From Candidatus Zixiibacteriota bacterium (GTDB taxonomy: Bacteria; Zixibacteria; MSB-5A5; GN15; FEB-12), in contig JAHOYZ010000024.1 in assembly GCA_019038695.1 (NCBI GenBank), positions 1 to 64,000 of the forward strand: a DNA stretch of 64,000 bases. Direction: 5' to 3'. How positions within the stretch are numbered: position 1 is the first letter of the stretch; every line of letters starts with the position of its first letter. Below the pieces are notes generated by a model, which saw only the letters and a list, made by a program, of their open reading frames with translations, did no database searches and was not told the origin of the DNA. Below are positions 2,950 to 16,040 of the stretch, one piece after another. A program made the position numbers and the translations under genes.

Positions 2950-3267
2950 ATGTCAGAGTCAGGTAACGAAAATGTGGACAACGTGGAAAACGAAGATGGC
3001 TTCCTGAGGGAAATGTCGTCGTGGTCCCGAGAGATTGCTGAGGAACTTGCCCATAGGAATGACATTGGCCCTCTAACGGAGGACCATTGGAAAATCATCG
3101 AGTTTGTGAAGGAGTACTTCGAGAAACACAAGAGAGGTCCATCGATCCTGGAAATCAGTAAGCGAACCAACTTCGATTCGAAGAAAATCTGTACTTTGTT
3201 CCCGTGTGGTGTTGCCAGAGGAGCATATCGGTTGGCTGGCTTGCCGAGACCGAGCGGATGTCTGTAG
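2950..3267 (+). CDS. DsrC/TusE-family sulfur-carrier protein, single domain
   Basis: The 105-residue protein follows the DsrC pattern along its whole length: DGFL near the start, LTEDHW at about 38-43, then FPCGVARGAY and AGLPRPSGCL at the end. Members of this family carry sulfur or disulfide equivalents on a swinging C-terminal arm. Classical DsrC uses two arm cysteines (Cys93 and Cys104 in the 105-residue Desulfovibrio protein). Here Cys104 is present as the penultimate residue but position 93 is Tyr, so on its own it cannot form the intramolecular disulfide. It resembles TusE in that respect, but no tusBCD genes are near and the neighbours are DsrM/DsrK-like. GGAGG lies four bases before the ATG. 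It probably works with the membrane complex encoded next. Confidence 0.85.
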   Translation: MSESGNENVDNVENEDGFLREMSSWSREIAEELAHRNDIGPLTEDHWKIIEFVKEYFEKHKRGPSILEISKRTNFDSKKICTLFPCGVARGAYRLAGLPRPSGCL

Positions 3268-3356
3268 CCTGCTGTCGAAAAGGTGCAGATAGTCATATGA
3301 AACTACCCCTCCATAGGTTTGAGAGAAGCAGATAAACGCTCGGAAAGGAGCTTACT

Positions 3357-4055
3357 TTGAATTACTTCATTCTTGGCATTCTACCATTCATTACCGTGTT
3401 GATTTTCGTGCTCGGAATGGGATACAGGCTTTATACCTGGTTTCACACACCGCAACCAGGTGCACTGACTCTCTTCCCGGCTCCAAAAGCTGGGTCAGAG
3501 ACTTTCTTTAATGTACTCAAGGAATCGTTTCTATTCCCAAGTCTCTTTCAGGGAGACAAGGTCCTCTGGGGAATTTCCTGGATATTTCATGTCATGCTCG
3601 CTTTGATCTTTGTCGGACACATACGAGTTGTCACTGATTTTCCGAAGCTGTGGGCAGCTCTTGGTATCAATGCAGATAAGATGAGTGCTGTCTCCGGTGG
3701 TGCAGCAGGTATCTTGATTATGGTCCTTGCGATTGTGCTAATAGTGCGAAGACTTGCTGTACCGCGCGTTCGACAAATCTCTAATCTTCCTGACTATATA
3801 ACTCTGCTGTTGATCACTGCCATTCTTGTTACCGGTAACGCCATGAGGTTTGGAGAGCATTTCGATCTGGAAATAACCAGAACATATTTCTCGGCTCTCT
3901 TCACATTCTCACTTAGTGCGGCGATAATACCGCAGGTTGGTATGTTTACGCTGCACTTCCTACTGGCGCAGCTCTTGATCATTTTTATCCCTTTCAGCAA
4001 AATCATGCACTTTGGCGGGATGTTCTTCACTCAGACTGTTATTAAGAAAGCTTAG
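3357..4055 (+). CDS. DsrM/HdrE-like membrane cytochrome b subunit
   Basis: The 232-residue protein has about five hydrophobic spans and the layout of the nitrate reductase gamma/DsrM/HdrE cytochrome b family. Histidines in or near membrane helices (H78, H88, H168, H200, H218) are candidate haem ligands. The start is TTG at 3357, with AAGGAG six bases upstream. By family it takes electrons from menaquinol and passes them across the membrane to the DsrK-like subunit encoded 15 bases downstream. It completes a minimal DsrMK-type pair. No DsrJ, DsrO or DsrP genes follow. The family is clear; the direction of electron flow is not visible from sequence. Confidence 0.8.
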   Translation: MNYFILGILPFITVLIFVLGMGYRLYTWFHTPQPGALTLFPAPKAGSETFFNVLKESFLFPSLFQGDKVLWGISWIFHVMLALIFVGHIRVVTDFPKLWAALGINADKMSAVSGGAAGILIMVLAIVLIVRRLAVPRVRQISNLPDYITLLLITAILVTGNAMRFGEHFDLEITRTYFSALFTFSLSAAIIPQVGMFTLHFLLAQLLIIFIPFSKIMHFGGMFFTQTVIKKA

Positions 4056-4070
4056 AAGGGAGACAGCATT

Positions 4071-5402
4071 ATGACGAAGAATCCTGAGGCTCATGAGGCA
4101 ATCAAGCAGAAGACTACTGGAAGCAAGATAAACGAGGAAGTCACCAGTGCCTGTAGATCCATCGATAAAGGTCCTCGTGTATTGAAACTATATATGGAGA
4201 TGTGCGCAAAATGTGGTACCTGCGCCGAGCAATGTCCTGTCTATAAGGGTGGCCCGACGGATCTGCGCAATCCAGTTCTACGCTCCGACCTGATCCGCTC
4301 TATCTATAAGAGACATGAGACGATGTCGGGCAAATTGCTTGGGAAAGCCGTTGGTGCAGAAGATTTCAACGGCGATATGCAACAATTCGTTGACGCCTTT
4401 TACGAGTGCACTGGCTGTCGCCGCTGTGCAACCTTCTGTCCGATGAGTATAGACAATTCGGTGATAACCAGGAAAGGAAGAGCAATCGCGGATAAACTGG
4501 GTTGGACACCCGAGAACCTGCAGAAGGTAGTTGCCATCTCTCTCGAAACCGGGAACACTGATGGCGCGTCCAAAGTGGCTTTTACTGAATCAGTCAAGTT
4601 TCTTGAGGAAGAAATCAAGGACAATTGTGGGATAGATGTCAGGATCCCTTATGATGAAGTTGGTGCTGATGTCTTCTTTGTTCCGCCTTCTGGTGACTTA
4701 TTAGTCAATCCTGAAGCTGTCATGGGGATTGCCAAGGTATTCCACATGACTGGAGTATCGTGGACTCTAAGTTCAAAGGCTTTTGATGGCGCAAATTATG
4801 GTTTGTTCACGGGTGATGATGCCTCGATGAAACTGGACAACAAGTTGTACGTCGAGGAATGCAAACGCCTCGGCAGCAAGACCATGATGATGGGTGAATG
4901 TGGTCACGCCCATCGTATCATGAAGTTCATTATGGAAAAAGCCGGTTGGTGGGGTAAACTTCCTTTTGAGATCACGAACGTTCTCCAGTACACTGCGAAA
5001 TGTGTTGAGAACGGCGAAATCAAATTCGACAAGGATCGTAACCCTGATCCGGTCGCTTATCACGATCCCTGTAACTTCGGACGGAGTTGCGGGATTGTCG
5101 AGGAGCCTCGAATCATCATGAAAGCAGCCTGCGCTGACTTCCGCGAGATGACTCCCAATCGTAGCCAAAACTGGTGCTGCGGCGGCGGCGGTGGTTTGTC
5201 TGCCATGGATGATATTCATGAATTTCGAATGAATGTATCTGGAACGATGAAATTGATGCAGATTGACGCTACCGGAGCGAAGTTCTGTGCTGCACCATGT
5301 TCCAATTGCAAAAGACAGCTAATACAGCTAATGGAATACCACAAACGGGACGTTGTAATTGGAGGTGTGCACGACGTAGTATTTAACTCGATCGTGATGT
5401 AG
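4071..5402 (+). CDS. DsrK/HdrD-like Fe-S protein with CCG domains
   Basis: The 443-residue protein begins with two [4Fe-4S] ferredoxin motifs, C45-x2-C48-x2-C51-x3-C55-P and C113-x2-C116-x2-C119-x3-C123-P. It ends with two CCG modules: HDPCNFGRSCG with NWCCGGGGG, and FCAAPCSNCK. This is the architecture of DsrK and of HdrD, whose CCG region binds the special cluster that reduces disulfides. The spacing to the DsrM-like gene is 15 bases, so the two subunits are made together. Its likely substrate is a disulfide or trisulfide on the DsrC-type proteins of this module. No dsrAB genes are seen in the window, so true sulfite respiration is not supported here. Confidence 0.85.
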   Translation: MTKNPEAHEAIKQKTTGSKINEEVTSACRSIDKGPRVLKLYMEMCAKCGTCAEQCPVYKGGPTDLRNPVLRSDLIRSIYKRHETMSGKLLGKAVGAEDFNGDMQQFVDAFYECTGCRRCATFCPMSIDNSVITRKGRAIADKLGWTPENLQKVVAISLETGNTDGASKVAFTESVKFLEEEIKDNCGIDVRIPYDEVGADVFFVPPSGDLLVNPEAVMGIAKVFHMTGVSWTLSSKAFDGANYGLFTGDDASMKLDNKLYVEECKRLGSKTMMMGECGHAHRIMKFIMEKAGWWGKLPFEITNVLQYTAKCVENGEIKFDKDRNPDPVAYHDPCNFGRSCGIVEEPRIIMKAACADFREMTPNRSQNWCCGGGGGLSAMDDIHEFRMNVSGTMKLMQIDATGAKFCAAPCSNCKRQLIQLMEYHKRDVVIGGVHDVVFNSIVM

Positions 5403-5679
5403 ATAAGTACTGATTCTGAGAAGATTGAGAGGAGTGACTGAAAGAAGTCGCATAGATCAAAGTGTTAATCTATTTCAGGCATGCATGCTGATAGTGGTGC
5501 CTGACTCACCATCCATGCGTTCTACATCTCATCGGATGTGTGGTAATAGTTGGATTATACATCAGGTTCAGAGTGCCATCAACAATCTGAATGGATTCGA
5601 GTGCTTGGCTTGCAATTGAAATCACCTGTATGTGGAAGATTGTCCAAATGAAGTCACTACATGGACTCAGGAGGTTCAC

Positions 5680-6516
5680 ATGAACAATGTACCATGCAGG
5701 AACCGGACATTCCTTCTAGAACTTAGGTCAGTATATGATTACGTCCTGAGCGAGTACTCCCATTGGCTGATGTGTATGACTCATAGGCTTGGGCGCGAAT
5801 CGGCCTTGGAAGTATGGAACGACGCATTGTTGCGATTTGATGTGGAGTTTTTGGATCAAATACTCTCAAACGGCTGGAGCGAAGCACCCAGTTCCTGCAA
5901 TATCGCAGACTCAGAGCGCCCTATGGAAGGAATCCTGGAAGTGTTCTTTGCTGATCACGACAGTAATGACGAAGAGGATGAAGATAGAGAAATCATCATG
6001 GCTGCACCCCCTTTGCTCCAGATTAGGGAGAAGTTAGCCCAGGGTCCCATACACAGATCTTCGACCACCTACGAGGCCATACATCTATACTGCCATGGTT
6101 TTGCACTGATGGCCGAATCACTGATTGACCGTTTCGGTTGCTTAGGTATGCTTCTTGCCTATGATATCAGACTGGAAGAGATTGCGATGACAAATTTCGA
6201 GAAACTCAGCGTTGAGGAATTTATCAAGAGACGTCGAACTCGATTCAGCAAAGATCCAGAGGAACTCGAAATACACTCGGCCGGATTGGAAGCGGAACTC
6301 ATCAGCTCATCTGATACTGAGATAGTAACTCACACAACGGAATGTGAGTGGGTAAGGTATTATAGAGACCACCATCCCACTGTAGGCTATCTTATGTGCT
6401 GCAGTGTCGATGATATTGCATACAGAGCAATAAACGAACGCCTTCGTCTGCAGCGCACGACCACACTGATGGAAGGTAGTTCATGCTGTGATTTCAGAAT
6501 TTTCGCTGTTGAGTAA
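5680..6516 (+). CDS. ATC-hydrolase-like protein (L-2-amino-thiazoline-4-carboxylate hydrolase family)
   Basis: The start is set at ATG 5680 because AGGAGG lies five bases before it, giving 278 residues. The last 70 residues carry the family's signature: CEWVRYYRDHHP, then GYLMCCSVDD, then RTTTLMEGSSCCDF. Family members open amino-thiazoline rings on a route to cysteine, but most genomic copies are uncharacterised and may act on other sulfur compounds. An acidic stretch with DSNDEEDEDRE lies near residue 95. The gene sits between dsrK-like and tandem dsrC-like genes on the same strand, so a role in the same thiol chemistry is a fair inference. The 277-base gap before it may contain its own promoter. 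Confidence 0.65.
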   Translation: MNNVPCRNRTFLLELRSVYDYVLSEYSHWLMCMTHRLGRESALEVWNDALLRFDVEFLDQILSNGWSEAPSSCNIADSERPMEGILEVFFADHDSNDEEDEDREIIMAAPPLLQIREKLAQGPIHRSSTTYEAIHLYCHGFALMAESLIDRFGCLGMLLAYDIRLEEIAMTNFEKLSVEEFIKRRRTRFSKDPEELEIHSAGLEAELISSSDTEIVTHTTECEWVRYYRDHHPTVGYLMCCSVDDIAYRAINERLRLQRTTTLMEGSSCCDFRIFAVE

Positions 6517-6685
6517 ACGGCCTTCCGAACTTGACTACTGTTCTGAGTAGCTTTGAATTGCCCAGCCTGAATGCAGCAGCTATTCTCCTAGCGTCTAATC
6601 AGTTTCAGTTGCTTTGTCCCTTCATATTTCTTATCCTGATTAAGGCTAAGTGGCCAGAGCTTCACTGGCGTGAGAGGACTAATGG

Positions 6686-7339
6686 ATGGATCAGCAGACT
6701 GTCACTTTCAATGGAAAAGAGTATGAGCTTGACGGCTATGGCTTTCTTGATCTGCCTGACAAATGGGACGAGGATTTTGCTGATGGAATGGCTGGAATGG
6801 TGGGCATATATGACGGCCTAACAGAGGACCACTGGAAATTCATTCACTATGTCAGAGGAAAATTCCTTGCAGAAAACACTGTCCCTGTCGTTGTGATAGC
6901 CTGCTCAGACAACGAAATGAGATTGAGCAGACTCCGCGAACTTTTTCCTGCTGGGTATCATCGCGGCGCTTGCAGGATTGCTGGTATCAACTTTGCTTTC
7001 ATGTCTGAAAGTAATATCTGGCTCACCTACGAAACTGCCCCTCCGGTTGAGGCTGAACACAAAGTGGATGAGCTTGGCTTCCTCCAGGATTTCGAGAAAT
7101 GGAACGAGCGATTTGCCCAGTGGGTTGTACTCAATTGGAGCCTTCCTGACGGTCTGACTGAGGAACACTGGGTGATCATTCGATTTTTAAGAGATATCTA
7201 TCGTGGCACAAATAATGTTCCCACAATATACGAAGTGTGCCGATCATGCAACATTGAGCTTGATGATTTCGGGAAACTCTTTCCCAAGGGATATCGCCGA
7301 GGCGCGTGTCGGGCAGCGGGACTTCCGCTTCTGGCCTGA
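6686..7339 (+). CDS. tandem-domain DsrC homologue
   Basis: The 217 residues are two DsrC domains in a row. Each has a GFL...W entry (about 19-27 and 132-141), LTE-D/E-HW (45-50 and about 157), an FPxGY turn and RGAC-R-AG (Cys96 and Cys208). Both halves keep the inner arm cysteine (equivalent to Cys93) and both lack the last PxPxGCx segment, so neither has the penultimate cysteine. The second copy stops at LPLLA just where that segment would begin. This is the mirror image of the single-domain homologue at 2950-3267. GAGAGGA lies eight bases before the ATG. It could be the redox partner or a regulatory decoy. I know of no fixed function for fused DsrC pairs. Confidence 0.8.
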   Translation: MDQQTVTFNGKEYELDGYGFLDLPDKWDEDFADGMAGMVGIYDGLTEDHWKFIHYVRGKFLAENTVPVVVIACSDNEMRLSRLRELFPAGYHRGACRIAGINFAFMSESNIWLTYETAPPVEAEHKVDELGFLQDFEKWNERFAQWVVLNWSLPDGLTEEHWVIIRFLRDIYRGTNNVPTIYEVCRSCNIELDDFGKLFPKGYRRGACRAAGLPLLA

Positions 7340-8550: not shown

Positions 8551-10419
8551 TTAGTACGTTACCGTTACCTCATTGGAACAAGGTGAACCGCCGATCTCGC
8601 AAACCTGGTATGTGAAGGATCCGCCCCCGACGCTAGTGGTTACATCGGTGTAGAATCCGTCGTTTTCCGTGACTACGAGCAGAGCCCTATCACGGTAAAT
8701 CTCGACGTCGGTGCCCGTAGCGCCGCTCCACTCCAGATCCGTCTGCTTACGGCCCTTAACTTTGTAACCGGTAGCGGTCAGGGTGAAGGTGCCGCCACTC
8801 GAAACCGAGACATCCTTTGAAGTCGAGCCGGTAGCTCCGTCGTCGTCGGTAACCGTCAGCGAAACGGAGTAGGTGCCGTCGGTGCCGTATGTATGGGAAG
8901 GATTCTGCGCTGTCGAGGTAGAGCCGTCACCGAAGTTCCAGTCCCAGCCGACCACACTGCCATCCGAGTCGGTGCTCAGATCGGTGAAATCAGCCGTCAG
9001 ATCAGTTGTCGTGAAGCTGAAGTCAGCGATCGGCGGGTCGTTGGTTACGCCGCTCGAAACCGTGACATCCTTCGAAGTCGAGCCGGTAGCTCCGTCGTCG
9101 TCGGTAACCGTCAGCGAAACGGAGTAGGTGCCGTCGGAGCCATAGGTATGGGAAGGATTCTGGGTAGTCGAGGTATTTCCATCACCGAAGTCCCAGTCCC
9201 AGCCGACCACACTGCCGTCCGAGTCGGTACTCAGATCGGTAAAGTCAGCGGTGAGATCGGTAGTAGTGTAACTGAAATCAGCAGTCGGCGGATAGTTTGT
9301 AACTCCACCGCCATCGTCAATCGTTACATTGAACCTGTCGAGAACATAGTGGATAGGATTGGCAAGAGTATAATCGGGACTACCGGCAAACAGCAGCCCG
9401 ACCGGATTGTTCTTCCCGTCGTCAGTTACAATCAGCGAGCCAGAGTCACCGCCGTCACTGAAAGCGCCGGGTGTGATGGCGATCTGGTCTACCATTATTG
9501 CCGACTCCGCGCACATCATCGGACCTCTCGGTATATAGCATACTTCAACGGTCACGTTCACTTCCGAGACCTCACCATGTGTCCAACCGGTTGTTCGGCC
9601 GTATTTCTGCACGTTCTGACCGATAGAGGCAGACACTATCTGTGTGCTGGGAGTTCCGTAGCCGTCTCCCGTCGGTGTTGCGGTGCCAACGTTGCCGGTC
9701 GTTGTCAACGCGATGGCAGCATCAATATAATTGTCGCTGCCGTCCAACAAGATCGGCTCGTAATCGTAGAGGGTGCCGATGGCATCCGCGGGATCAGTTC
9801 CGCCGTCAGTAGGCCCAGGCTGAAGCACATTGTCACCGATTGAGGCGGCATTGACGTTCGCGTAGATATGGTTATTGCTTAGCGCATAGACATTACCCCC
9901 GGCGTCCTTGACCCTGCAGCCGATTGTGCCGGCAGTGATATCGGGATGGCCGGTCGATACACCGATAGGAACCGGACGATCAAACCGCGCCTTAGGATCG
10001 GCATAGATGACGAATTTGCCGGTCACCTTGGCGACAACTGGCAAACCGTCAATCGTTTCCGGAATTGCGTCGAGCGCATCCACTTTTCCTAATGCAGCCG
10101 ACGTGAATGTTCCCCGCTGAGGGACCCGGCTTACCGTATAGACGACAACCGCAAGTTCACCATCTTCATTACGCCCGGTTCCGGTACCCACGACGTCCGG
10201 GTGGCTCATCAAAGCCTCAGTAGATCGATCCTGAACCGCCATAACAGCCTGAACCCCGGGGTTCATGTTGTTTAGTAAGATCGACTGTGCTGCCGATTTG
10301 GGTGCATTCGTGATGGCACTTTCTTCACTGCATCCAATCCATAAACCGATGGAAACAATGAGTACAAGTGTTACTAAGGTAAAAAGGCTTACCTGTGAAA
10401 ATAGTTGATGCCTTTTCAT
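8551..10419 (-). CDS. trypsin-like serine protease lipoprotein with PKD repeats
   Basis: The 622-residue protein starts with a lipoprotein signal (IGLWIGC, Cys30). A small domain (62-140) follows, then a chymotrypsin-fold protease. His184 (LSNNHIYA), Asp233 (NYIDAAIA) and Ser326 (GGDSGS) form the expected triad. Two nearly identical PKD domains (about 375-460 and 465-545, each with GWDWDFGDG or a close variant) and a C-terminal FN3-like domain (548-622) make up the rest. It should be anchored in the envelope, facing outward, with the PKD part as spacer or binder. AGGAG precedes the ATG. The two PKD repeats are so alike at DNA level (around 8810-8990 and 9070-9250) that they could recombine. 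A hairpin and the 72-aa homologue of its own N-domain follow. Confidence 0.85.
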   Translation of the reverse strand: MKRHQLFSQVSLFTLVTLVLIVSIGLWIGCSEESAITNAPKSAAQSILLNNMNPGVQAVMAVQDRSTEALMSHPDVVGTGTGRNEDGELAVVVYTVSRVPQRGTFTSAALGKVDALDAIPETIDGLPVVAKVTGKFVIYADPKARFDRPVPIGVSTGHPDITAGTIGCRVKDAGGNVYALSNNHIYANVNAASIGDNVLQPGPTDGGTDPADAIGTLYDYEPILLDGSDNYIDAAIALTTTGNVGTATPTGDGYGTPSTQIVSASIGQNVQKYGRTTGWTHGEVSEVNVTVEVCYIPRGPMMCAESAIMVDQIAITPGAFSDGGDSGSLIVTDDGKNNPVGLLFAGSPDYTLANPIHYVLDRFNVTIDDGGGVTNYPPTADFSYTTTDLTADFTDLSTDSDGSVVGWDWDFGDGNTSTTQNPSHTYGSDGTYSVSLTVTDDDGATGSTSKDVTVSSGVTNDPPIADFSFTTTDLTADFTDLSTDSDGSVVGWDWNFGDGSTSTAQNPSHTYGTDGTYSVSLTVTDDDGATGSTSKDVSVSSGGTFTLTATGYKVKGRKQTDLEWSGATGTDVEIYRDRALLVVTENDGFYTDVTTSVGGGSFTYQVCEIGGSPCSNEVTVTY

Positions 10420-11248: not shown

Positions 11249-12664
11249 CTAATCTGCGTAGCAGGGCATAAAGTCAGTGCCCCCCCCGAATATGTATTCA
11301 ACAAGACCAACCACATCGCCGATATTAAACTGTGTGCTGCAGTCAAAATCAGTCAATCGTCGGCCTAGATTGCTAAGCGGCTTTCCTAGAAAACAATAGC
11401 CTACCAGGGCAGTCAAATCAGTTATGTTGATCTCCCCCGACATATCGAGATCACCGTAGCTGAAGGCAACGACTGAACTGAAAGCGGCTATACGTCCGTA
11501 GCTATAATAGATATCGGGCTGCGAAATCGACCCCCATGCGAACTCAGTATCGCTCGACATCCGAACATGCGCTTCCATATCCAGAGGACTTATGTCGGGG
11601 TTGATGGATCGGACCAGAGCACAGGTCGCACTGACCAGAGGCGCGGCAAACGACGTTCCACTCCAAGTCCCCCATTCGTATTCACCGGCAAGAGAACTGT
11701 AGAGATTGACGCCAGGTGCACAAACGTCAATATGGGTGCCATAATTCGAGAAATCGGCTATTAGATCAATCGTATCCAGCGCCGATACCGCGATTACCCC
11801 CGGCAGAGCCGCCGGATACGACAACGATGATGACGCCTGATTACCAGCCGCCGCCACCAATGCGATTCCGAAATCAATGGCTTCGGCACAAGCAGCCTGA
11901 AGGCTGGGGTTGTCCTCTCGAAACACGAAGCTCATATTGATTACGTCCACATCAAGCACCGTGGCCAAACTGATGGCGCTCGCAACGGTGAAAGAAGTAC
12001 CGATACCGTCGCCATCAAAGGCTCTGATGGGAAGCAGGCTAGTTTGGGGGGCCGTCAATCGGATCAGACCGGCCACAAAGGTACCATGTCCATAGGCGGC
12101 ACCCTGTTCCTCGGCAGGAATGTCGTCCTGGTCAACGAAATCGTACCCTGAACTGTTTATAGAACCTTCGAAGTATGGATGGGTTAACTCAATACCATTG
12201 TCGATAACAGCCACAACCGAACCCTCACCGCGTGTAATGATATGGGCAGAGTCGAGTCCGATGCTGTAGGCGGCAGGCTGACCGTATAGTGAACCGGGAC
12301 TCGCACCTGCAACGAAGGGGGGGATATCTTCATCTGGAAACGCTATACTCGTCTGCTGGATCTCGGGGAGGCTAATCTGATAGTTCGGCTGGGAAAAAAC
12401 CACATCGGGGAGATTGGACAGAAACTCAATGGCGGCTTCAACCGGTAACGTCGCTGGGAATTCAACAAGGAACATGTCCCTCCCTGCAATGCTGTCTATG
12501 GCTATGCCATCGATTTCTGCGACAACGGAGTCCGGGACCTGTGAGGGAATGAGCTTCATTATGAGTTGACCGGGAATGTACGGATCCTGCGCCTGCACGG
12601 TACTCCAGAATAATCCAACGCTAAGCGCCATGATCAACTGTAACTTACGCCTATATTTTAACAT
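11249..12664 (-). CDS. secreted subtilisin-family (S8) protease with dockerin-like C-terminus
   Basis: The 471-residue protein has a Sec signal ending near ALA-type residues STVQAQ (1-26), then a fervidolysin-like pro-region (to about 100). The S8 catalytic domain carries Asp155 (AVIDNG), His193 (YGHGT), oxyanion Asn275 (AAAGN) and Ser338 (SGTSFAAP), so it should be active. Residues 405-471 form two dockerin-like repeats (GDLDMSGEINITDLTALV and a second, looser one ending VVGLVEYIFGGG). It begins 26 bases after the CHAT gene, as the last gene of the ECF sigma/CHAT operon. The pairing suggests one regulated proteolytic programme with a cytoplasmic and an exported protease. Confidence 0.88.
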   Translation of the reverse strand: MLKYRRKLQLIMALSVGLFWSTVQAQDPYIPGQLIMKLIPSQVPDSVVAEIDGIAIDSIAGRDMFLVEFPATLPVEAAIEFLSNLPDVVFSQPNYQISLPEIQQTSIAFPDEDIPPFVAGASPGSLYGQPAAYSIGLDSAHIITRGEGSVVAVIDNGIELTHPYFEGSINSSGYDFVDQDDIPAEEQGAAYGHGTFVAGLIRLTAPQTSLLPIRAFDGDGIGTSFTVASAISLATVLDVDVINMSFVFREDNPSLQAACAEAIDFGIALVAAAGNQASSSLSYPAALPGVIAVSALDTIDLIADFSNYGTHIDVCAPGVNLYSSLAGEYEWGTWSGTSFAAPLVSATCALVRSINPDISPLDMEAHVRMSSDTEFAWGSISQPDIYYSYGRIAAFSSVVAFSYGDLDMSGEINITDLTALVGYCFLGKPLSNLGRRLTDFDCSTQFNIGDVVGLVEYIFGGGTDFMPCYAD

Positions 12665-12690: not shown

Positions 12691-15450
12691 CTAAATGCCC
12701 AAAAGTACAAAACCACTCCAGAATGCCGGGTCTATCGTCATACGGGACATCTGTTTTATGGCTGATCTATATGCATCCGGCACCTGCCCGGAGGATGCCA
12801 AAGCTTCATAGAAAAACATCATAAATGCTGCGCTGTGCCTGTCTGCCAAGGGCCACAAAGAGGCCAACACATACCGGCTACCGGCCTGGTGAAAGGCCTT
12901 TGCCAAGGTATACGAATTACCGTAATATAATCCCGGAGCAGCCGTTTGGCAACCTGAAAGAGTAACCAGTGATGCTCCCACCCCTTCGGCATAGAGGTCA
13001 AACGGATACAGAGGACCGTCGCTCATAAAGATTTGAGAGAATAGCGGGTTCTCAGACGACCGTGAGGCGTGTGTTGCTATGTGTACAAAACCTCTGGTCT
13101 GTGCCAGGTTTTTTCTTAAGGTCTCACAATCTGCTTCTTCTCCTATGAACACGTTAGAGGTTTTGAAGAGGGACTTTATTCTCTCAACCTCTGCAGTAAC
13201 GGCGGGTATAGTCTCTGATGGAACACCAAAGATGGCATTGGGTTGCCTTTTGAACCGCACTGTTGATCGTTTTCTATGTCGAAGGTCATGCGGACAGACT
13301 ACAGTATCCAGATTGAATAAGTCTTTGAAGTAGGTGCCGCCATCATTCATCAAAGCCATAAATGGCACTTGAGCAAAAACACCGTCGGCAACGACTATTA
13401 GCCTATTACCAGACAATTCTTGTTCCAGGGGTTTGATCAGGACGCGGTATAGTTTTCTGAGATAATGTCTCTGTGCTTCGTCGGACGATTCACCGCTTCC
13501 GATGCCAATAACCGCTCTTTCAACCACAAAATGAAGCTCCCACACGATTGCTCGCAACTGCTGTAAAGATATCTCCAATGGAATCCAAGTGACGTTATCT
13601 TTATCACCGCAGAAAGCAGCAATACTCCCGCTACTTGTGGCGTGGAAGTTAACGATTGACTCCCCGGGTTTCAACAACTCCGCAACAGAGTTCAGTTCTG
13701 TATCAAGCACCCGGTCACGAACCGGCCGGTGGGAGTATGTCCTTATCCGTCTTTCGATCGACCAGAGTCGCTGTTCAGAATCGTAGTAAGTGTCAGACTG
13801 AGTACCGCTCCGCTGATCCCCTGTGGAAACTTTAGTCAACTTCTTGATCGAAGCGCGGAGCTCCGATCGCTCATCAAGGAGACGCCGAGGAACACGCTTC
13901 AAACTCAGCCTCGTCTGATGTCGCCTTTCGTTGATAATTGACAATGCCCGGAGATTGCTCAAGAACGATGAATCGTAGCGCCCGAGATGTAACAGTGAAT
14001 CAACAACTCCCTTGTAAGCATCCAGTTTGTCCAAGATAAAGAAGAACCGTATCTCATCGGAGTGGAGACCAGCCACCATCTTTTCCAGGATTTCCACCGC
14101 CCGTTTGAAGTGATCCAAGGCTCTCGAATTCTGTTTGCTCCGGTCATAATACTGCCCCAGGATGATTTGCAGGTCGTAAACCTGATAACCTGCCAGCTTA
14201 CTGGTGAGCAGGGATTCTGCAGCGCGAATCCCTTTTGCGCTGTCACCGTTATGAAGCATGATTCGCACCAGATGTATGTCAGCATCGGAGGTTCTTCGCC
14301 TGTCGCCGCTTTTCTTAAAAAGTCGCTTGGCTCGTAGCGTCGCCTCATCGGCAGCTTTGATTCGCCCATTCGTCAACGAAAGCTGAGCCAGAGCCATCGA
14401 TGTAATCCCGAGCCAGAGGTCATTCTTCTCCTGCTGGAACAGCCTGGCAGACCGCCTAAGATAGCGGGATGCCAATCTGGGTTCACCGAGTTTGAGATGG
14501 GCAATTCCAATGAAATACGTTGCTTTGGCTGATTCATATTGCATCCCGAGCTTACTGAACTGGTTTGTGGCTTCTTCTCCGAGGTGAATAGCGGTCCCAA
14601 GTTGATTCAAATGTAGATTCACCTCAGCCAGATCCAATTGCGTAAGGGTCGCAGTTCTTCGGTCTCCGAGTTTGACGAATGTCGTATGGACTTCCTCAAA
14701 AGTCCTCAGTGATTCTGCATATTCGTCTTTAAGAAAATAGAGATAGGCTAATGAATACTTCGCCTTACATTCAAAAAGATGGAATCCCTCTTTTGCGTAT
14801 GTGTCGCCCGCTAACTTGTACAGTTGAGCAGCGACATCCAGTTTGTTTAGGTTAGCGAAGATGTTGGCCCGGTTAAAGTCAACTGTCGCAACGGCTACGC
14901 CGCCATTGGCCGCCAGAATCGTACGGGCTTTATCGTAGTATGCAAGGGCCAGGTGATTGCGGTCCATCCTGTGATACACGTTGCCAATGTTCGCGAGAAC
15001 TTTGCCCACGTTCGGCGACATCCGCTTCTTTCTAAAGTAGCTAAGTGACTTCTTGCCGGTTTTGATCGCTTCATCATAGTAGCCCAGATACATCTGTGCA
15101 TCCATAAGACCTTGGCCAACAAGAGCCACAGCGCGGGAATCACGCTGTTTTCGGAACAACGCACTCACCTGCTTGTATTGCTTCAAAGCCTGCCGATGAT
15201 TGCCCATCCACTGGCTGACGCGCGCCTGCATTGCAATCAAGTTGGGTTTGTATTTCGCCGGTAACAAGCGGACACAAGGTCTCAAACCGTCCACCAATCT
15301 CTTTGCTTTTCGGAGATCGGTCGCGAGCAGTCGATTTATGGAACTGTTTAGACAATCCAGAAAACTATCCATGTCGCCGTCGAAGCGACTATCGATCAGC
15401 CGATTGACGGCATCTCTATTTTTCAGTTTTCTCACATCGGAGAGTTTCAT
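12691..15450 (-). CDS. TPR-CHAT caspase-like protease
   Basis: The start is taken as ATG 15450, which overlaps the preceding stop by one base (TGATG). This gives 919 residues. About residues 50-470 are tetratricopeptide repeats (for example AKATYFIGIAHLKLGEPRLA). After a linker with charged helices comes a C-terminal CHAT domain (about 640-915). His794 (HIATHA) and Cys834 (LSGCQT) form the caspase-like dyad, both intact. No signal peptide is seen, so it is cytoplasmic. CHAT proteases act in bacterial stress, death and defence pathways, with TPRs as sensor or substrate arm. The operon partners are an ECF sigma factor, an anti-sigma-like protein and a secreted subtilase. A natural guess is that it cleaves the anti-sigma-like protein or another regulator. 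Confidence 0.88.
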   Translation of the reverse strand: MKLSDVRKLKNRDAVNRLIDSRFDGDMDSFLDCLNSSINRLLATDLRKAKRLVDGLRPCVRLLPAKYKPNLIAMQARVSQWMGNHRQALKQYKQVSALFRKQRDSRAVALVGQGLMDAQMYLGYYDEAIKTGKKSLSYFRKKRMSPNVGKVLANIGNVYHRMDRNHLALAYYDKARTILAANGGVAVATVDFNRANIFANLNKLDVAAQLYKLAGDTYAKEGFHLFECKAKYSLAYLYFLKDEYAESLRTFEEVHTTFVKLGDRRTATLTQLDLAEVNLHLNQLGTAIHLGEEATNQFSKLGMQYESAKATYFIGIAHLKLGEPRLASRYLRRSARLFQQEKNDLWLGITSMALAQLSLTNGRIKAADEATLRAKRLFKKSGDRRRTSDADIHLVRIMLHNGDSAKGIRAAESLLTSKLAGYQVYDLQIILGQYYDRSKQNSRALDHFKRAVEILEKMVAGLHSDEIRFFFILDKLDAYKGVVDSLLHLGRYDSSFLSNLRALSIINERRHQTRLSLKRVPRRLLDERSELRASIKKLTKVSTGDQRSGTQSDTYYDSEQRLWSIERRIRTYSHRPVRDRVLDTELNSVAELLKPGESIVNFHATSSGSIAAFCGDKDNVTWIPLEISLQQLRAIVWELHFVVERAVIGIGSGESSDEAQRHYLRKLYRVLIKPLEQELSGNRLIVVADGVFAQVPFMALMNDGGTYFKDLFNLDTVVCPHDLRHRKRSTVRFKRQPNAIFGVPSETIPAVTAEVERIKSLFKTSNVFIGEEADCETLRKNLAQTRGFVHIATHASRSSENPLFSQIFMSDGPLYPFDLYAEGVGASLVTLSGCQTAAPGLYYGNSYTLAKAFHQAGSRYVLASLWPLADRHSAAFMMFFYEALASSGQVPDAYRSAIKQMSRMTIDPAFWSGFVLLGI

Positions 15451-16040
15451 CACAACTCCAACTCGACGATCATGATCACTTTTGTGTTTTCTTGCACGGT
15501 TAGCTTGCACTTACCTGCGGGAACGCGATTCATCTGGAAAATGTGAAACTCGTTTGTATCACACTTGAGCTTGGTTCTGCCGGACTGCAAGCGGATTGCA
15601 TGGCGTATTTCTTTTTTGACACCTGAAATCTTCCCGATCAACTGATATGAAGCACTTGTGACGGGATAAAGCGATAATTCGAGGCTCAACTGATCGGTAT
15701 TGAACCTCATTTGCCTGGTACTGACTTTGGCGGGACGAACACCGCTTGGTAAAGGGAGCAATTGTGAGTCAAAAGTTGCGATGCCAGTTTTAATGTCGCC
15801 GGCTTTAGTGCACTTTTTCACTTCTTTAAGAACACGCCGCACAAGCGCACGCGACGGTTTTTGAAGCTCCGGATAATCTTCACCGAGTAGTGCACACGAA
15901 AGTGATCTGAGACATGACAGATAATCACAGAGTTCAGTATCCTTGGCCAGTTCAGATTCGATCTGACGTCTCCTTGAACCACTAAGTCTGCCACTCACGT
16001 ACGCAAGCAGTTCAGCTAACTTCTCTTCAGATACTTCCAT
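15450..16040 (-). CDS. anti-sigma-like protein of the ECF/CHAT operon
   Basis: The 196-residue soluble protein opens with a helical segment (LAELLAYVSGRLSGSRRRQI, then ESELAKDTELCDYLSCLRSL). This resembles the N-terminal helices of anti-sigma factors, but the HxxxCxxC zinc signature is not complete. The last 100 residues look like a small beta-sandwich (SYQLIGKISGVKKEI, VPAGKCKLTVQ). No membrane helix is present, unlike many anti-sigma factors. It lies 46 bases after the ECF sigma gene and overlaps the CHAT gene by one base, which is the best argument for its role. It is the obvious substrate candidate for the CHAT protease. Function is inferred from position. Confidence 0.55.
   Translation of the reverse strand: MEVSEEKLAELLAYVSGRLSGSRRRQIESELAKDTELCDYLSCLRSLSCALLGEDYPELQKPSRALVRRVLKEVKKCTKAGDIKTGIATFDSQLLPLPSGVRPAKVSTRQMRFNTDQLSLELSLYPVTSASYQLIGKISGVKKEIRHAIRLQSGRTKLKCDTNEFHIFQMNRVPAGKCKLTVQENTKVIMIVELEL

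Follow-up and report, generated by a model that had tools for sequence, protein, structure and literature searches.

A cassette encoding a DsrC homologue with tyrosine at position 93, DsrM- and DsrK-like proteins and, usually, a tandem DsrC in uncultivated sulfur-metabolising bacteria

In dissimilatory sulfur metabolism the central carrier is DsrC, a protein whose working part is held to be the pair Cys93/Cys104. The DNA analysed here, termed the window, is a 64,000-nucleotide stretch from Candidatus Zixiibacteriota bacterium (assembly GCA_019038695.1, contig JAHOYZ010000024.1:1-64000). It carries a cassette in which relatives of this carrier are encoded together with relatives of DsrM and DsrK, in the order regulator, DsrC-Y, DsrM2, DsrK2 and, usually present, a tandem DsrC, all on the + strand in the window. 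The cassette suggests a rewiring of the carrier's classical cysteine pair.

DsrC-Y (2950-3267) is a 105-amino-acid (aa) member of the DsrC family (PF04358, E-value 5.7e-27), whose AlphaFold 2 (AF2) model matches the solved DsrC structure of D. vulgaris (2v4j). The C-terminus, GLPRPSGCL, keeps the arm motif GLPxPxGC with the penultimate Cys104 (codon 3259-3261), and the alignment and the survey of the phylum place a tyrosine (3226-3228) at position 93, which is cysteine in canonical DsrC. DsrC-Y thus lacks the classical combination of Cys93 and Cys104 in one protein, and the family match and the list of residues bear out the Tyr93 and Cys104 that the original prediction had read in this open reading frame. 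In contrast, its description as a protein with a single cysteine is contradicted by two residues that had been missed, Cys81 (3190-3192) and Cys86 (3205-3207), which make Cys104 the third cysteine. The corresponding positions in D. vulgaris DsrC are occupied by Tyr and Ser, respectively, the latter being the serine of the canonical FPSG motif. Of the three cysteines the arm holds only Cys104. Cys81, Cys86, Tyr93 and Cys104 are invariant in an alignment of 23 DsrC-Y homologues from 22 genomes, and the invariance of the three cysteines extends to genomes that lack the tandem DsrC. For Cys86 and Tyr93 this invariance is partly by construction, as both are required by the DNA pattern that supplied most of the 23 sequences; Cys81 and Cys104 are not part of the pattern. 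The same residues are found in five sequences retrieved with the Pfam profile and through a separate protein search with DsrK2, both free of this bias, so that the pattern is rejected as the sole cause of the conservation. One homologue, in genome G148, contains an in-frame TAG (L162:10632-11000), which reflects an assembly error or decay, and genome G075 encodes a second DsrC-Y-like protein (L135:6035-6361) that ends in GCA, its gene adjoining a regulator and DsrM homologues of its own.

DsrM2 (3357-4055), a membrane cytochrome b subunit of the NarI/DsrM type with 232 aa, matches the Pfam family Nitrate_red_gam (1.8e-19) and scores 82 bits against the NCBIfam DsrM model, under its cut-off of 300 bits. 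Its residues His78, His88, His200 and His218 are invariant and common to canonical DsrM. DsrK2 (4071-5402) is an iron-sulfur (Fe-S) protein of 443 aa with a CCG domain, for which DsrK is the best-scoring family (351 bits), yet the score lies below the 400-bit NCBIfam cut-off. Two [4Fe-4S] motifs and the CCG cysteines, the features that mark a DsrK, are conserved. DsrK2 is 34% identical to the canonical DsrK of the window genome; at the C-terminal CxxC of DsrK2 this protein aligns C and D, and the HdrD-like CCG motif is fuller in DsrK2. The window genome encodes a further DsrK-like protein (G000:C28:236-1453), 41% identical to DsrK2.

The tandem DsrC (6686-7339, 217 aa, two PF04358 domains, E-value 6.5e-39) consists of two arm-less DsrC domains, and its AF2 model (pLDDT, the predicted local distance difference test, of 90) adopts the DsrC fold and matches solved DsrC. 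Cys96 (6971-6973) in the first half and Cys208 (7307-7309) in the second half occupy the Cys93 position, while the first half has no cysteine at the arm site and the C-terminus follows nine residues after Cys208, so that no Cys104 equivalent exists. The two-domain match and the residue list therefore agree with what had been proposed for this protein, and the 3.4-kb distance given between the two genes is also correct. In the alignment of 16 members, Cys96 and Cys208 are conserved in 16/16, as is Cys73 (6902-6904) in the first half, and Cys185 (7238-7240) in the second half is conserved in 15/16. Together with the DsrC-Y alignment, this contradicts the possibility that the cysteines vary freely in the orthologues.

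Tandem DsrC proteins are common in Zixibacteria, with up to six per genome, and are thus not special to the window genome. Tandems outside the cassette resemble the cassette protein in their two fused arm-less domains and in the Cys93 equivalent kept in the first half, but differ in the second half, where Val (30 proteins), Ile (one) or Leu (one) is found (C/V type), in forming a separate clade and in showing no tie to DsrM2 and DsrK2. The Cys93 equivalent is present in both halves (C/C type) in 18/18 tandems read from cassette genomes or beside DsrK2, and these 18 form one clade with a support of 100/100. Because of this single clade, the C/C versus C/V difference is read from the sequences as having arisen once, with inheritance alongside the cassette thereafter. 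In genome G062 the cassette tandem is C/C, and two further tandems outside the cassette are C/V. The C/V genes are numerous and mostly have no shared neighbours; some lie near genes for [NiFe] hydrogenase, hydrogenase maturation and NAD/Fe-S subunits (L041, L042, L043, L044, L058 and L069), others near a gene that joins a class-V aminotransferase to an AIR-synthase-like (SelD-type) protein in one fusion (L038, L051, L055 and L057). A 363-aa protein with three DsrC domains is also encoded (L065:7898-8986).

The DNA-pattern scan, in which 84,980 species were represented by one genome each, yielded 23 loci; DsrC-Y is present in 19 of them, and the other cassette genes wherever the fetched stretch extends. 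The hosts are uncultivated sulfur-metabolising bacteria of at least six phyla, their record titles naming Zixibacteria, Latescibacterota, Deltaproteobacteria, Chitinivibrionia, Myxococcota, Planctomycetota, Calditrichaeota and Acidobacteriota, with some giving no phylum name. In a survey of 133 genomes of the phylum, DsrC-Y occurs in nine, and the pattern-free search recovered DsrK2, at 65-100% identity and for its orthologues 65-82%, in exactly the same nine genomes, all remaining matches being at or below 43% identity. The tandem is encoded in 18 of the 24 distinct DsrC-Y genomes (in the same locus in 14 of the 18); for 17 of these genomes the tandem was read with both Cys93 equivalents, and in G068 the second half is unread. 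For DsrC-Y against the tandem, the 133 genomes give a two-by-two table of 6, 3, 1 and 123 (Fisher p = 8e-8, kinship ignored), so that the co-occurrence elsewhere on which the original prediction depended is stronger than could have been foreseen from the sequence. A C/C tandem adjoins a DsrK2 fragment at a contig end in G118 (74% complete), where DsrC-Y was not found. In five DsrC-Y genomes (G009, G028, G116, G069 and G077) no tandem was found; G009 and G116 are rated 100% complete and G028 is a single contig. In G072 the tandem is present only as a fragment containing stops. The cassette and the conservation of its residues are not due to chance.

The cassette is accompanied by a canonical system. 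The window genome has, on another contig, the gene for a full DsrC that contains both cysteines; its neighbours there encode canonical DsrM and DsrK and DsrL-like and RsbRD-like proteins. A full-length DsrC is present in all cassette genomes checked except G076, for which only DsrC-Y and the tandem were recovered. DsrA scores above its cut-off in 22 of the 27 genomes tested, the window genome included, and is missing, weak or partial in the DsrC-Y genomes G064, G068, G075 and G078; AprA is above its cut-off in 20 of 24 genomes. No DsrE-family protein (PF02635, TusBCD/DsrEFH-type) was matched in the window genome, G028, G053 or G116, which for the window genome is more in keeping with a reductive pathway than with an oxidative one that depends on DsrEFH. 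A separate full DsrC that does the work had been named as grounds for rejecting the split pair. Such a protein does exist, so that canonical sulfite reduction need not depend on DsrC-Y and the tandem.

The first cassette gene (2105-2863) encodes a regulator with a MerR/excisionase-type helix-turn-helix (HTH; HTH_17, 8e-12), a cysteine-rich middle and a receiver-like C-terminal domain, whose Response_reg match (0.0068) is below its cut-off. Its orthologues lie upstream of DsrC-Y in other loci, and 22 aligned rows share 11 invariant cysteines, of which four fall within the receiver-like domain and seven in the stretch that separates it from the HTH. The protein may serve to sense redox state or metals. 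An ATC-hydrolase-like gene (5632-6516, + strand, PF14196, 2.9e-16) sits between DsrK2 and the tandem and has no homologue in the other cassette loci; its absence elsewhere rules it out as a cassette member and makes it special to the window. No recurrent neighbours beyond the cassette genes were found among the cassette loci. Further along the window, a reading of the sequence indicates a protein with PKD repeats (8551-10419), a subtilisin-like protease with dockerin-like repeats (11249-12664) and a TPR protein with a CHAT-like C-terminus (12691-15510).

The cassette resembles the canonical DsrC/DsrMK(JOP) system in that a DsrC-family carrier with an arm and Cys104 is encoded beside DsrM and a CCG-domain DsrK. 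It differs in Tyr93 and the extra Cys81 and Cys86, in the 232-aa DsrM2 and the divergence of DsrK2 given above, in the adjoining tandem and in the lack of other recurrent neighbours, and the canonical set is present besides. Similarly, the CoM-S-S-CoB heterodisulfide reductase HdrDE, TmcBC and HmcEF combine a membrane b-type subunit with a CCG protein acting on disulfides. In contrast, the cassette substrate would be the thiols of DsrC-family proteins, and the scores are far under the cut-offs of those families. RspA proteins are regulatory members of the DsrC family that have the DsrC fold without part of the classical cysteine pair, and the tandem is likened to them by description. In a literature search that left most subscription journals outside, no prior description of the DsrC-Y/DsrM2K2/tandem system, of a tandem DsrC or of RspA was found, and an earlier description is possible.

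We tentatively favour, from the sequences, a reading of the locus as a second, dedicated quinone-linked DsrMK module with DsrC-Y as its own carrier, in which Cys86 or Cys81 has taken over as resolving cysteine and the tandem plays an accessory part. Since the DsrM2 histidines and the Fe-S and CCG cysteines of DsrK2 are kept, a quinone-linked reaction with a DsrC-type thiol/disulfide is the natural reading by analogy with the DsrMK family. DsrM2, on the quinone side with its b haems, and DsrK2, with its Fe-S clusters and CCG catalytic domain, would exchange electrons with the thiol carrier DsrC-Y, whose retained C-terminal arm and Cys104 would enter an active site. DsrC-Y and DsrK2 were not seen apart in any complete locus and the tandem is sometimes absent, so that the core reaction should work without the tandem, which in turn makes Cys86 or Cys81 the candidates to pair with Cys104. 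With a Tyr at position 93, the place of the former partner of Cys104 would have passed to Cys86 and/or Cys81, and Cys104 probably pairs within its own protein. The arm-less tandem, with its two Cys93-type cysteines, would be an accessory and usually co-inherited partner, dispensable in some lineages. It probably forms or receives mixed disulfides or persulfides that involve the arm of DsrC-Y or that of the full DsrC in the same genome. The genes, their residues and the conservation of these, the linkage and the lack of the tandem in some genomes are observed, while the disulfide chemistry, the direction of electron flow, the substrate and the contacts between partners are inferred. Three points weigh against this interpretation. 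The arm of DsrC-Y has a pLDDT of 53 in the AF2 model, which gives no usable view of it; Cys81 and Cys86 could instead be structural or bind metal; and most DsrC-Y genomes retain the tandem, which suggests that its role is not a minor one. That C/C tandems are so strongly linked to the cassette indicates that they take part in most lineages, where they may act as heterodisulfide partner, sulfur acceptor or sensor.

Several other explanations bear on the same residues. The complementary halves of the classical pair sit in DsrC-Y and in the tandem, and an intermolecular disulfide or trisulfide could link Cys104 of DsrC-Y to Cys96 or Cys208, with one tandem perhaps serving two DsrC-Y molecules and the heterodisulfide reduced by DsrM2K2; such a link, if true, would be a protein counterpart to the CoM-S-S-CoB heterodisulfide found in methanogens. 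The tandem's presence in most DsrC-Y genomes of several phyla, mostly adjoining DsrK2, the confinement of the second-half cysteine to the cassette clade and the fuller HdrD-like CCG motif all agree with such a split. We nevertheless consider it unlikely, as DsrC-Y has invariant cysteines of its own, the tandem is missing from five DsrC-Y genomes, including complete ones, and C/C and C/V tandems diverged only once in evolution, which does not amount to repeated co-variation. The stronger claim of the original prediction, that the pair could form only between proteins, is not supported, given these cysteines, the conserved Cys73 and Cys185 of the tandem and the cassettes without a tandem. Alternatively, the tandem would be an RspA-like regulator or sensor of the sulfur state rather than a redox substrate; its cysteines and LexA-like HTH part would read the state of DsrC-Y or of persulfides together with the cysteine-rich regulator. 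In favour of this, tandem proteins have no arm of the kind that enters DsrAB or DsrK, there is a weak resemblance between the DsrC fold and the DNA-binding domain of LexA, the cassette opens with a regulator rich in invariant cysteines, and C/V tandems occur in large numbers, most of them with no neighbours in common. A catalytic partner would explain at least equally well why Cys96 and Cys208 are strictly kept and why the tandem directly follows DsrK2, and this sensor role is likewise judged improbable.

In a further alternative, which we regard as very unlikely, Cys81, Cys86 and Cys104 bind metal or hold the structure and DsrC-Y is otherwise a one-cysteine sulfur carrier like TusE, which it resembles in keeping only the penultimate cysteine of the classical pair. 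Cys104 alone lies on the arm, and DsrC of A. vinosum binds sulfur by its penultimate cysteine only (PMC3397948). Position 93, however, is reported to be Ala, Ser or Thr, not Tyr, in organisms without DsrAB (PMC3397948). Judged by sequence, both cassette proteins depart from the pattern of Stockdreher et al., DsrC-Y with a Tyr in DsrAB-bearing organisms and the tandem in missing the penultimate cysteine. E. coli TusE has Thr93 and neither Cys81 nor Cys86, and it works with TusBCD, a family that the window genome lacks. The window genome does encode DsrA. A TusE-like function is disfavoured by the residue at position 93, by the additional cysteines and by the lack of a DsrE-type partner. Degenerate paralogues without function, to which the in-frame TAG in G148 and the broken tandem in G072 might point, are extremely improbable in view of the invariant residues and the gene order conserved across at least six phyla.

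A cassette that keeps DsrMK and yet rewires the cysteine pair, in at least six phyla, would mean that the chemistry of the carrier is not fixed, and it offers natural variants for testing recognition by DsrK. It also cautions against counting every dsrC, dsrM or dsrK gene of a metagenome towards the sulfite-reduction set.

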